Shown here one piece after another: positions 33,734-42,335 of a DNA stretch of 64,000 bases (positions are counted from its first letter, which is position 1; every line of letters begins with the position of its first letter). The stretch is taken from assembly GCF_007752535.1 (NCBI RefSeq), contig NZ_CP036426.1:3596001-3660000 (forward strand). The letters run 5' to 3'. The notes under the pieces are model-generated. The model had not been told where the DNA came from. It did not search any database and saw only the letters and a list, made by a program, of their open reading frames with translations. The translations under genes and the position numbers were made by a program. This stretch comes from Tautonia plasticadhaerens (GTDB lineage Bacteria > Planctomycetota > Planctomycetia > Isosphaerales > Isosphaeraceae).

Positions 33734-34456
33734 ATGGCGACCCTGGCCGAATTCCTGGAGCGGCTCTTCGGCGAGGGCCGCGTCTCGTTCACCGGGCCGC
33801 CCCCGCCGTCCCCGGCCGAGGCGGAGCGGTCGGAGGCCCTCGGCCCGCTCCGCCGGGCGTTCGCCGACGACCTGATGGACCTGGCCGGGCCGCCGCTGCC
33901 GATCGACGGGCCCGCCGCCCTGGCCGCCGCCGAGTGGACCCGGCTCGCCTGCTGGTTCCTCGTCAGCCGGGGGGCGCCCCCCGAGGTGGTCGATCGCGCC
34001 CTGGCGCCGCCCCCCCCGCCGAGGTCGGCGGCGGCCCACCTGTCGGCCGACCTGACCTTCCGCTACCTGCCGGGCGTCCATCGCCGGGCCCGGGCGATCG
34101 ACCCGGGCGACGTGCTCGCGTCGAGGCTGGCGGAGGTGCTCCGCCGCTGGCCGCTCTCCGGGGCGCTGTCCGACGTGCAGGGGGTGCCCACCTCGCCGGT
34201 GGACTTCTTCGGGCACGACGGCCTGATGCTCCGCTTCGCCGAGCGGCTCGCCCTGCGGGAGGCCCCGGACTGGATCCCGACCCGGGGCCGGGGCCTCGAG
34301 CTGTGGGATTTGACGCTCGACGCGATGGGCCGCCGCCCCCGGTCGTCGCCGGGGGATGTCGAGGGCATCGGCCCGGGGTCGGGGTCGGGGTCGGGGTCGG
34401 GGTCGGCGAATGGGATCGGGACCGAGATCGGGGGAGGCGCCGGTGGCCGGGGATGA
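33734..34456 (+). CDS. First protein of MoxR/vWA/propeller operon, function unknown
   Basis: 240 residues, cytosolic and mostly helical. No catalytic motif is recognisable. Conserved-looking segments are LAEFLERLFGEGRVSF at the start and a central LTFRYLPGVHRRARAIDPGD. DVQGVPTSPVDFFGHDGLML is followed by RFAERLALREAPDWIP in the C-terminal half. The tail is a Gly/Ser repeat encoded by GGGTCG units (about 34375-34405). It is first in the run of co-oriented genes leading to the MoxR ATPase, whose start overlaps its 3' end by 14 bp. It is therefore probably an adaptor of that system. Confidence 0.65.
   Translation: MATLAEFLERLFGEGRVSFTGPPPPSPAEAERSEALGPLRRAFADDLMDLAGPPLPIDGPAALAAAEWTRLACWFLVSRGAPPEVVDRALAPPPPPRSAAAHLSADLTFRYLPGVHRRARAIDPGDVLASRLAEVLRRWPLSGALSDVQGVPTSPVDFFGHDGLMLRFAERLALREAPDWIPTRGRGLELWDLTLDAMGRRPRSSPGDVEGIGPGSGSGSGSGSANGIGTEIGGGAGGRG
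34375..34405 (+). repeat. GGGTCG hexanucleotide repeat
   Basis: About five tandem GGGTCG units near the 3' end of the first MoxR-operon gene, encoding Gly-Ser repeats. They end shortly before the MoxR ribosome binding site (34431-34437). Confidence 0.75.
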
Positions 34457-39720: not shown

Positions 39721-42335
39721 CGACGGCCGCCTTGGCGCCGGGGACGATCCGCCTCCGGAGGCTCGGGCGGGGCCTGTTCGTGCCGGTCGATGCCGACCTC
39801 GTCCCCGCGCTGCTGGAAGACGAGGTCGAGGGGCTGACCCGGGGCCGGGGCCTGGTCTTCCTGCCGGGCGGGACGGCCCTGAGGTTCGACCCGGACCGGC
39901 CGCTGCCGACGTCCCGGCTGCTGGGGGTCGACCGCGCCGACGGCCTCCCCGGCTGGGAGTCCCCCCCGGAAGGGCCGACCCGGGCCGATCGGCTCGTCGA
40001 GGTCTCCCTGGATCTGCCGGGGGACGACGCCGAGGCCCGCCTCGGGGCCGGCGGCGACGACATCGCCACCGAGGAGACCCGGCCCGAGGACACCGGCGCC
40101 CCCCGCCGGGCCCTCGGCGGCGCGGCGATGGGGGCGGGGCGGGGGATGATGTGGCTCGGCCGGACGCTGGGGATGTCCGGCCTCTCGGGGATGGGGGCGC
40201 GCTGGATCGGCTCGGCGATGGAGCTGGCCCCCCGGCTCGGCGAGGCCCTGCTCGGCAAGCAGGAGGGGGCGCTGCGCGACCTGCTCCGCGAGTTCCGGGA
40301 GGGGGACGTCGAGCGGGCCCTCCGACGGGCCCTGCCCCTGGGCAAGGGGAACGAGCGGGGGGCCTCGGCCGCCGGGTCGGCCGACCTGCCCGAGCGCGAC
40401 CCCAGCTACTCCTTGCCCGACATCCTCGGCCCGCCCGGCGTCGGCCGGGGCGGCGGCGCCGGCTACTGGTTCGGCGGCTTCGACGTGCAGCAGGAGCTGA
40501 TCCGGGAGTACCACCGGGCCGCCCAGGCCGCCGCCCGACGCGGCGACTACCGCCGGGCCGCCTTCATCTACGCCCGGCTGCTGGAGGACTATCGCCTCGC
40601 CGCCGGCGTGCTGCTCCAGGGCGGGCTGGCCCGGGACGCCGCGTTGATCTACCTGGAGAAGCTGGACGACCGCCCCGCCGCCGCCCGGGCCTTCGAGGCC
40701 GCCGGGGAGTTCGACCGCGCCCTGGCCCTCTACCGGGGGCTCGACGACTTCGAGCGCGCCGGGGACCTGCTCGCCCGGCTCGGCGAGCCCGAGGAGGCGC
40801 TGGAGGCCTACCTCCGGGCCGCCGACCGGATCGTCGACCTCGAGGGGGACCACCTCAAGGCCGGGGAACTGCTCCGCTCCCGGGCCTCCCGCCCCGACCT
40901 GGCCTCCCGGTTCTTCGCCGACGGCTGGGCGGCCCGCCCCGGTCCCAACGCCGTCTCCTGCGCCGTCGAGCTGGCCCGGTCGTGGGCCGACTCGGGGGAG
41001 GCCGCCCCGCTCCGCTCGCTCGTCGCCGAGGCCGACGAGCTGCTCGGCCCCCCGGGGCACGAGGCCGACGCCTCCCGGTTCTACAACGAGCTGGCCCGCC
41101 TGGCCGACCTGCCGGGCCTGGCCCCCTGCCGGGTCGAATTGCGGGACCGGGCCCTGATCGGCCTGGCCGGGAAGCTCCGGCAGCGGGCCGGGCCGGGGGC
41201 GTCGGCCCCGCCGGGGCTGGCCTCCTCCCTGTTCGGCCCGGCCCGGGAGTGGTCGGCGGACCTGATCCGGGACGCCGAGTACGCCCTGCGGGCCTCCGCC
41301 CGGCCCCGGGCCGTCGGGGAGCCCCGCCCGGCCTCCCCCCCGCCGCGGGCGACCACCTCCCGGCTCGTCGACGGGCCGGTCACGGCCGTCGCCTTCGCCC
41401 GGGGGGCTGGCCTGGCGTTCCTCGGCACCCGGTCCGGGGACGTGTACCGGCTCGACCCGGCCCGGGGCGAGGCCGAGCGCCTGGGCCGCTACGCGATGCC
41501 GGTCTGCTCCCTGGCGGTCGACGAGGCCGGGGGTGCGCTCTCGGTGCTCTGGCACGACCCCGAGTCCGGCCGGACGGTCCTCGCCTCCTACGCCCGACGG
41601 CCGGACGGCTCCTACCGGATGACCGAGGGCCGCGCCGTCACCGCCCGGTCGGCCGGGGATCGCCCCTTCCTCGCCCCCCCCGCGCCGGGGATGGCCGGGG
41701 AGGTTGCCCTCTGGGACGGCCGCAGCTACGTCCTGCTCCGGGGGGCCTCGCTCACGCCCTGGGGGGAGATCCCCCGGGGGGCCGACGAGGACGGCGGGCC
41801 GCCCCCCGCCTCGGTCCTCCTGCCGATGGGCCCGGCGCCCTCGGCGACCCTGCTGGAGCTGGGCCCCCCCCGCTCCTGGGCCTGGCTCGCCCCGGACCTC
41901 GGCCCGGTCGACCGCCTGGCGGTCCCCTGGTCCCCCCGGCCGCCGATCGAGGCGGCCGGGGCCTCGCCGTCGCTCTCCTGGATCCGGGAGGACCCCGGGA
42001 GGCTGATCCTGGCCGGCCTCGGCGACGGCGGCGTGCTGCACCAGACGACCCTCTCGCTCCGCCGGGACCCGATCGCCGTCGAGGGCAACGCCTCCTGGTC
42101 CTCCCCCGAGGCGATCTTCCGGGCCGCCTGCCTCGTCCGCCCCGGGCTGCTGGCCGGCGTCGGGGCCGACGCCGTCCACTGGCTCCGGGCCGAGCCCGGC
42201 CGCCTCGCCCGGCGCTCGACGACTGGCATCGCCCTCGGCAGCACCCTGGCCGCCGTCCCCAGCCCGAAGACGGGTGAACTCGTGCTCATCGGGGCCGACG
42301 GCCGGGCCGAGCGCCTCCCGCTGCCGTATCCCTGA
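39717..42335 (+). CDS. Solenoid plus beta-propeller protein of the MoxR system (bpX-like)
   Basis: 873 residues from GTG 39717, which overlaps the preceding stop as GTGA. A 5' extension is probably encoded at 39502-39716 in another frame. The order is: a beta-rich N-terminal region (IRLRRLGRGLFVPVDADLVP); a Gly/Met-rich segment (about 125-185); a TPR-like helical solenoid (about 256-400: YHRAAQAAARRGDYRRAAFI, then AFEAAGEFDRALALYRGLDD, then LLARLGEPEEALEAYLRAAD); and a C-terminal propeller (about 545-873: VTAVAFARGAGLAFLGTRSG, VCSLAVDEAGGALSVLW). No signal peptide or membrane span is seen. It closes the operon. The domain make-up matches propeller subunits of MoxR-vWA-propeller ternary systems. 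Confidence 0.72.
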   Translation: MTTAALAPGTIRLRRLGRGLFVPVDADLVPALLEDEVEGLTRGRGLVFLPGGTALRFDPDRPLPTSRLLGVDRADGLPGWESPPEGPTRADRLVEVSLDLPGDDAEARLGAGGDDIATEETRPEDTGAPRRALGGAAMGAGRGMMWLGRTLGMSGLSGMGARWIGSAMELAPRLGEALLGKQEGALRDLLREFREGDVERALRRALPLGKGNERGASAAGSADLPERDPSYSLPDILGPPGVGRGGGAGYWFGGFDVQQELIREYHRAAQAAARRGDYRRAAFIYARLLEDYRLAAGVLLQGGLARDAALIYLEKLDDRPAAARAFEAAGEFDRALALYRGLDDFERAGDLLARLGEPEEALEAYLRAADRIVDLEGDHLKAGELLRSRASRPDLASRFFADGWAARPGPNAVSCAVELARSWADSGEAAPLRSLVAEADELLGPPGHEADASRFYNELARLADLPGLAPCRVELRDRALIGLAGKLRQRAGPGASAPPGLASSLFGPAREWSADLIRDAEYALRASARPRAVGEPRPASPPPRATTSRLVDGPVTAVAFARGAGLAFLGTRSGDVYRLDPARGEAERLGRYAMPVCSLAVDEAGGALSVLWHDPESGRTVLASYARRPDGSYRMTEGRAVTARSAGDRPFLAPPAPGMAGEVALWDGRSYVLLRGASLTPWGEIPRGADEDGGPPPASVLLPMGPAPSATLLELGPPRSWAWLAPDLGPVDRLAVPWSPRPPIEAAGASPSLSWIREDPGRLILAGLGDGGVLHQTTLSLRRDPIAVEGNASWSSPEAIFRAACLVRPGLLAGVGADAVHWLRAEPGRLARRSTTGIALGSTLAAVPSPKTGELVLIGADGRAERLPLPYP

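Follow-up and report, generated by a model that had tools for sequence, protein, structure and literature searches.

A five-gene operon of Tautonia plasticadhaerens ElP, located at positions 33734-42335 of a 64,000-nucleotide stretch of DNA that was analyzed as a whole (the window), is identified by profile comparison as a complete and typical member of the MoxR-vWA-beta-propeller (bpX) ternary systems. Its co-oriented genes encode, in order, bpX4, bpMoxR, bpX2, the vWA component, and bpX3, and profile searches matched all five products to named Pfam bpX-system families with scores above the cut-offs. A preliminary description of the window, made from its letters alone, had assigned the operon to these ternary systems, and the assignment is borne out by the five family matches together with a GXXXTAKS-type P-loop (GPPGTAKS) in the ATPase. 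Taken together, and with defense excluded from the figure, membership in the bpX ternary systems and a chaperone-type mechanism have in our estimate a probability of about 0.7. This kind of system has already been described, and the new content presented here is a corrected annotation and three small refinements.

Gene content and domain architecture

The features of the operon are the following (the genome searched comprised 9,395,224 bases in six contigs):

33734-34456, + strand: bpX4 (PF19920), alpha-helical accessory protein of 240 residues; Pfam 1.8e-44; single genome copy; conserved as the first operon gene among relatives
34356-35612, + strand: bpMoxR AAA+ ATPase (PF20030); Pfam 4.9e-91; start uncertain (34356, 34410, or later)
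35649-36515, + strand: bpX2 (PF19918), alpha+beta accessory protein of 288 residues; Pfam 4.5e-36
36512-39379, + strand: vWA component of 955 residues with bpX0, a conserved linker, vWA, a WD40-like propeller, and bpX1; Pfam, AlphaFold2 model, PDB comparison
39502-39720, + strand: N-terminal part of bpX3, frame 1, ATG at 39502; early stop after the G run; frame and codon analysis
39682-39692, + strand: G11 homopolymer, frame-change site of bpX3, probable assembly error
39717-42335, + strand: remainder of bpX3 with the C-terminal half of the bpX3 domain, glycine-rich helices, a TPR solenoid, and a WD40 propeller; Pfam 9.8e-14; homologue model

The bpX2 and vWA genes overlap by 4 bp (36512-36515), a gap of about 120 bp separates the vWA and bpX3 genes, and the overlap between the MoxR and bpX4 genes is uncertain because the MoxR start is itself uncertain. 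The preliminary description had counted five or six co-oriented genes with overlaps of 4-14 bp; five genes and the 4-bp overlap stand, whereas the vWA and bpX3 genes are separate and the open reading frame (ORF) at 42274 is no overlapping member of the operon. The coding part of this ORF starts at about 42553 and specifies an unrelated TPR protein that adjoins the operon only in Tautonia relatives. The products of the genes at 33734 and 35649, which had been taken for possibly undescribed subunits, are in fact bpX4 and bpX2; linked alpha-helical and alpha+beta accessory genes of this sort are present in a subset of bpX systems. Profile searches of the PDB starting from bpX2 and bpX4 returned nothing useful.

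The ATPase matches bpMoxR with 303.8 bits (cut-off 27) and carries its GPPGTAKS P-loop at residue 82 of the 34356 product; a peculiar GXXXTAKS P-loop is described for the MoxR proteins of bpX systems in the relevant passages of PMC7159879. The FLDEL Walker B, ASN sensor 1, and DRF motifs are intact, and the nearest solved structure is RavA (3e-55). The 955-residue protein contains bpX0 (5.4e-8, 33.7 bits) and bpX1 (3.4e-10, 40.0 bits), both above the cut-off of 27, and a divergent vWA domain with weak ivWA and DUF58 matches (16.2 bits for ivWA against a cut-off of 35) and a Rossmannoid strand order. Its AlphaFold2 model (predicted local distance difference test (pLDDT) 80.4, predicted template modeling score (pTM) 0.52) places a vWA-like Rossmannoid at about residues 311-457 and a WD40-like propeller region from about residue 490, which matched WD40 structures with Z up to 13.7 in the PDB comparison; no blade count is given because the strands continue into bpX1. 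Residues 246-300 are the best-conserved part of the protein (59% mean identity), and pLDDT is low in parts of this segment when the chain is modeled alone, a combination that would be expected of a partner-binding segment.

For bpX3, the model of a Singulisphaera acidiphila homologue (pLDDT 81.4) comprises an alpha/beta N-domain, a flexible linker, helices at 183-258, a solenoid at 308-582, and a propeller at about 594-919 (Z 24, root mean square deviation 2.9 over 282 residues), and the bpX3 profile matches WD40 structures by sequence (2e-21). By sequence, the best structural relatives of the TPR region (profile A4, 345-450) other than WD40 proteins are the IFT144/WDR19 solenoids (1e-7), which probably reflects a general TPR resemblance; we draw no descent from this match because TPR-type repeats match widely. 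Pfam and the structure models thus agree with the MoxR AAA+ ATPase, the 955-residue vWA/propeller protein, and the solenoid/propeller protein recognized at the outset, with propellers backed in both large proteins and a vWA fold that is present but divergent. The structure comparisons were dominated by propeller matches and hardly probed the vWA, bpX0, and bpX3 N-terminal parts.

Compared with subsystem 4 in the passages of Kaur et al. 2020 (PMC7159879) that describe it, the operon has all components and the P-loop variant, a vWA protein with an N-terminal helical domain, a propeller, and a C-terminal beta domain, a third component with a globular N-domain, TPR, and propeller, and extra alpha and alpha+beta genes, and it shares the occurrence in planctomycetes and Bacteroidetes. 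Unlike the systems in those passages, this clade has a D-Q-G / T-H vWA site, and its third component has an N-domain that is not hypervariable and no clear membrane segment. Hypervariability is given there as a characteristic and not as a membership rule; across 27 loci it was not found, the mean identity of bpX3 being 37% in the N-domain, 40% in the TPR, and 22% in the propeller, and no strongly hydrophobic 19-residue stretch was found in the bpX3 helical segment by Kyte-Doolittle analysis only. The divergent vWA, the GXXXTAKS P-loop, and the weak ivWA match also recall the FtsH-containing MoxR-vWA ternary systems (subsystem 3 in the same passages); on the other hand, this operon has no FtsH or ubiquitin-like genes, and its ivWA match is below the cut-off; a genome-wide ivWA search, which drew no match in any control, is no evidence of absence. 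A MoxR ATPase with a vWA partner is likewise found in RavA/ViaA and NorQ/NorD, RavA being the nearest solved MoxR. To our knowledge, neither of these pairs has propeller or TPR partners.

The vWA site and the N-terminal domain of bpX3

The vWA site of the window protein reads D318-Q-G-V-R-T-W-G together with LTH407 and departs from the canonical metal ion-dependent adhesion site (MIDAS; DxSxS, T, D) in that D318 is kept, the Ser positions are Gly and Arg, and the second Asp is replaced by His407. In the model, they stand at the ends of strands 1 (311-317) and 4 (399-406), where a MIDAS usually lies. The preliminary description had rightly noticed the D-Q-G in this protein, and the motif extends across the planctomycete lineage. 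D318, Q319, G320, T323, W324, and G325 are invariant in 14 Isosphaeraceae vWA proteins, and in a 30-sequence alignment D-Q-G-[VI]-[RL]-T-W-G is present in all 27 planctomycete-type rows, strand 4 of which ends in L-T-H in 26 (one of these F-T-H) and in L-T-N in the other. Two Bacteroidetes rows and one unclassified row (L105, L127, L103) carry D-T-T-L-x-x-W-G, and one of these Bacteroidetes rows keeps I-T-D. The alignment indicates a fixed loss, across the planctomycete lineage, of the second Asp and of the two Ser.

Some vWA domains of these systems are described as being without one or both Asp in the passages of Kaur et al. (PMC7159879), and changes to the MIDAS of NorD abolish client activation while NorQ binding is kept (PMC9976466). 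NorD depends on a canonical MIDAS to act on its client (PMC9976466), a site that the present vWA lacks, and by analogy we infer that client contact of this vWA would have to work without a canonical metal site. A further extension, which we consider unlikely as a whole, is that the planctomycete bpX vWA has swapped a metal-dependent client site for the fixed D-Q-G-x-x-T-W-G / L-T-H site, that the choice of client now rests with the fast-changing propellers, and that bpX2 is a regulated partner or decoy of the bpX3 N-terminus.

The bpX3 N-domain and the C-terminal part of bpX2 (about 141-246) are likely homologous, as suggested by an hhalign alignment that joins them over 101 columns (E 6e-5, score 36.5), against scores of at most 15.4 and E of 0.15 or worse in reversed controls. 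Pfam keeps bpX2 and bpX3 as separate families despite this likeness.

Reading frame of bpX3

The ORF at 39438-42335 is not one gene, and bpX3 starts at 39502. The first 300 bases of the ORF have no coding signature (codon-position GC of 0.85/0.83/0.70 versus 0.82/0.58/0.97 directly after), and the bpX3 N-terminal sequence, which starts with the ATG at 39502, is read in a different frame; the switch between the two falls at the 11-G run at 39682-39692. A codon-usage caller independently splits the last gene into 39502-39720 and 39717-42335. Because the N-terminal part sits in another frame, the Pfam match of bpX3 (9.8e-14, 51.8 bits) is partial, covering model positions 74-163. Both bpX3 halves lie in a single frame in the five Isosphaeraceae loci where both were matched, and other relatives are open across the frame-change site, where their longest G or C run is 7.

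Runs of at least 11 G are rare in the genome (about 18), and the frame also changes at two further such runs, in Nudix-like and DUF1254-like genes (named by eye). At a C12 run, a frame change also splits the best acetolactate synthase of the assembly; its two pieces score 421.6 and 255.5 bits and jointly exceed the family cut-off of 538, and no second locus of the genome attains that score. Frame changes at G or C runs of at least 11, all probable homopolymer-length errors, are recorded at 39682-39692, G000 C1:1407427-1407445, L061, and L050. An automatic scan flagged one clear shift among the other runs, not that of bpX3, and two more were recognized by reading translations; most long G or C runs within coding sequence are in frame.

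The frame change in bpX3 is probably an assembly error, a reading favored because wrong homopolymer lengths are more probable than the breakage of a core biosynthetic gene. Long homopolymers do slip, the run is located in the third component, and runs of this length are scarce in the genome, all of which would suit a phase-variable on/off switch of bpX3 at the G11 tract or a frame change read through by slippage; the tract, however, is not conserved among relatives, and shifts at comparable runs in acetolactate synthase and two other genes are hard to explain in this way, and we judge phase variation by this tract very unlikely. A true break of bpX3 in a strain where the system is decaying would account for the out-of-frame deposited sequence, yet codon bias is intact on both sides of the frame change, all other operon genes are open, and a core biosynthetic gene of the same assembly shows the same kind of shift, so that decay is also improbable, if less strikingly so.

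Inheritance, neighborhood, and possible function

Among 45 Isosphaeraceae genomes, 19 have strong bpMoxR matches (E < 1e-79); among 392 Planctomycetota genomes, 30 have bpX4, in single copy each time. This patchy distribution marks the system as dispensable. The complete order bpX4-MoxR-bpX2-vWA-bpX3 recurs in 29 of 80 fetched MoxR loci, including one from Bacteroidetes and one unclassified, and was not found at the myxobacterial MoxR matches among them; the nearest relative of the operon is that of Tautonia sociabilis. Synteny extends to the flanks, with genes common within Tautonia and within Singulisphaera, and in one case (G001) only one flank is present in the relative. Two of the loci differ in arrangement: Zavarzinella formosa (L088) has a MoxR of the bpX type but none of the other four genes to within 10 kb of it, and at L093 the operon is split into two opposite blocks. 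In the vWA tree, the Isosphaeraceae form one group (support 99/100) with the Bacteroidetes outside, and the Gemmataceae share a single supported set with two rows that bear another family label or none. The ratio of nonsynonymous to synonymous substitution rates (dN/dS), from one Tautonia pair by a simple Nei-Gojobori-type method, is about 0.12 for MoxR, 0.28 for bpX4, 0.41 for bpX2, and 0.26 for both vWA and bpX3, and about 0.18 for a flanking TPR gene. These results point to largely vertical inheritance, with selection that is purifying.

Searches of plasmids, phages, and viral contigs turned up no close copy; plasmids gave a single 84-residue match, and phages gave only partial, distant MoxR matches. 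The neighboring genes are mostly metabolic or transport genes; PADLOC applied to 119 flanking genes returned, as plain counts, no more than two members in any one family, the models matched being those for reverse transcriptase, kinase-type PD-T4-6, and mad6, and a reverse-transcriptase motif search in these genes found none. As to whether the operon is a mobile defense cassette, this indirect evidence is neutral to slightly against.

Two other features of the window may be mentioned. Directly upstream of the operon, at 31798-33450 on the + strand, lies a gene for an Sll1717-family P-loop ATPase (NCBIfam 1.2e-67), which is about 50% GC within a 71-78% GC region, is absent from the three other Tautonia genomes, and is by sequence comparison a recent foreign insertion; its product is distantly similar to an anti-phage protein model. 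A complete 5S-23S-16S rRNA operon occupies the left end of the window (1568-6970, - strand).

Beyond the observed domain content, family membership, operon conservation, and altered vWA site, a chaperone-type mechanism is suggested by the intact MoxR motifs and by the studied RavA and NorQ pairs. By analogy with RavA and NorQ, the MoxR ATPase would form a hexameric ring, with the vWA protein as its adaptor and residues 246-300 and the vWA domain as the likely ring contact. The propellers of the vWA protein and bpX3, together with the bpX3 TPR solenoid, would scaffold the complex and bind the client, and ATP hydrolysis would lead to a conformational change of the bpX3 complex. Because bpX2 carries a related domain, it may pair or compete with the bpX3 N-terminal domain. 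With identities of 22 and 25%, the two propellers are the least conserved parts. This would fit a role in recognizing clients or targets, yet such divergence is usual for propellers generally.

An anti-invader (conflict) role is a prediction for the family in the passages of PMC7159879, and for this operon we hold it to be possible, at somewhat less than even odds. On the opposing side, literature searches found no experiment on any bpX system, and mostly vertical inheritance and mostly ordinary neighbors are atypical of defense cassettes. In this lineage the third component shows no evident hypervariable N-terminal region or membrane segment, two of the features from which those passages argue for defense. 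A similarly tentative proposition is that the operon is no defense system and has a dedicated role in cellular assembly, bringing a resident complex to maturity much as RavA/ViaA or NorQ/NorD do. Such a role is favored by a vWA tree that follows taxonomy, the conserved flanks in Tautonia and Singulisphaera, the single bpX4 copy per genome, dN/dS values of about 0.12-0.41, the lack of close copies in the plasmids, phages, and viral contigs searched, and the mostly metabolic or transport neighbors; on the other hand, the patchy distribution makes the system dispensable, and no constant client gene was seen beside the operon.

Tautonia plasticadhaerens ElP, which is in culture and has been sequenced in full, is now on record as a host of a complete bpX operon, and its deposited bpX3 is probably miscalled, so that the strain annotation would miss an intact third component. 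The fixed non-MIDAS motif of the planctomycete lineage, the probable homology of bpX2 with the bpX3 N-domain, and the mostly vertical inheritance, which bears on the immune versus housekeeping question, are testable details beyond the passages of the founding paper (PMC7159879) considered here. If the swap of the metal-dependent client site were true, it would mean a metal-independent coupling of the MoxR motor to its client.

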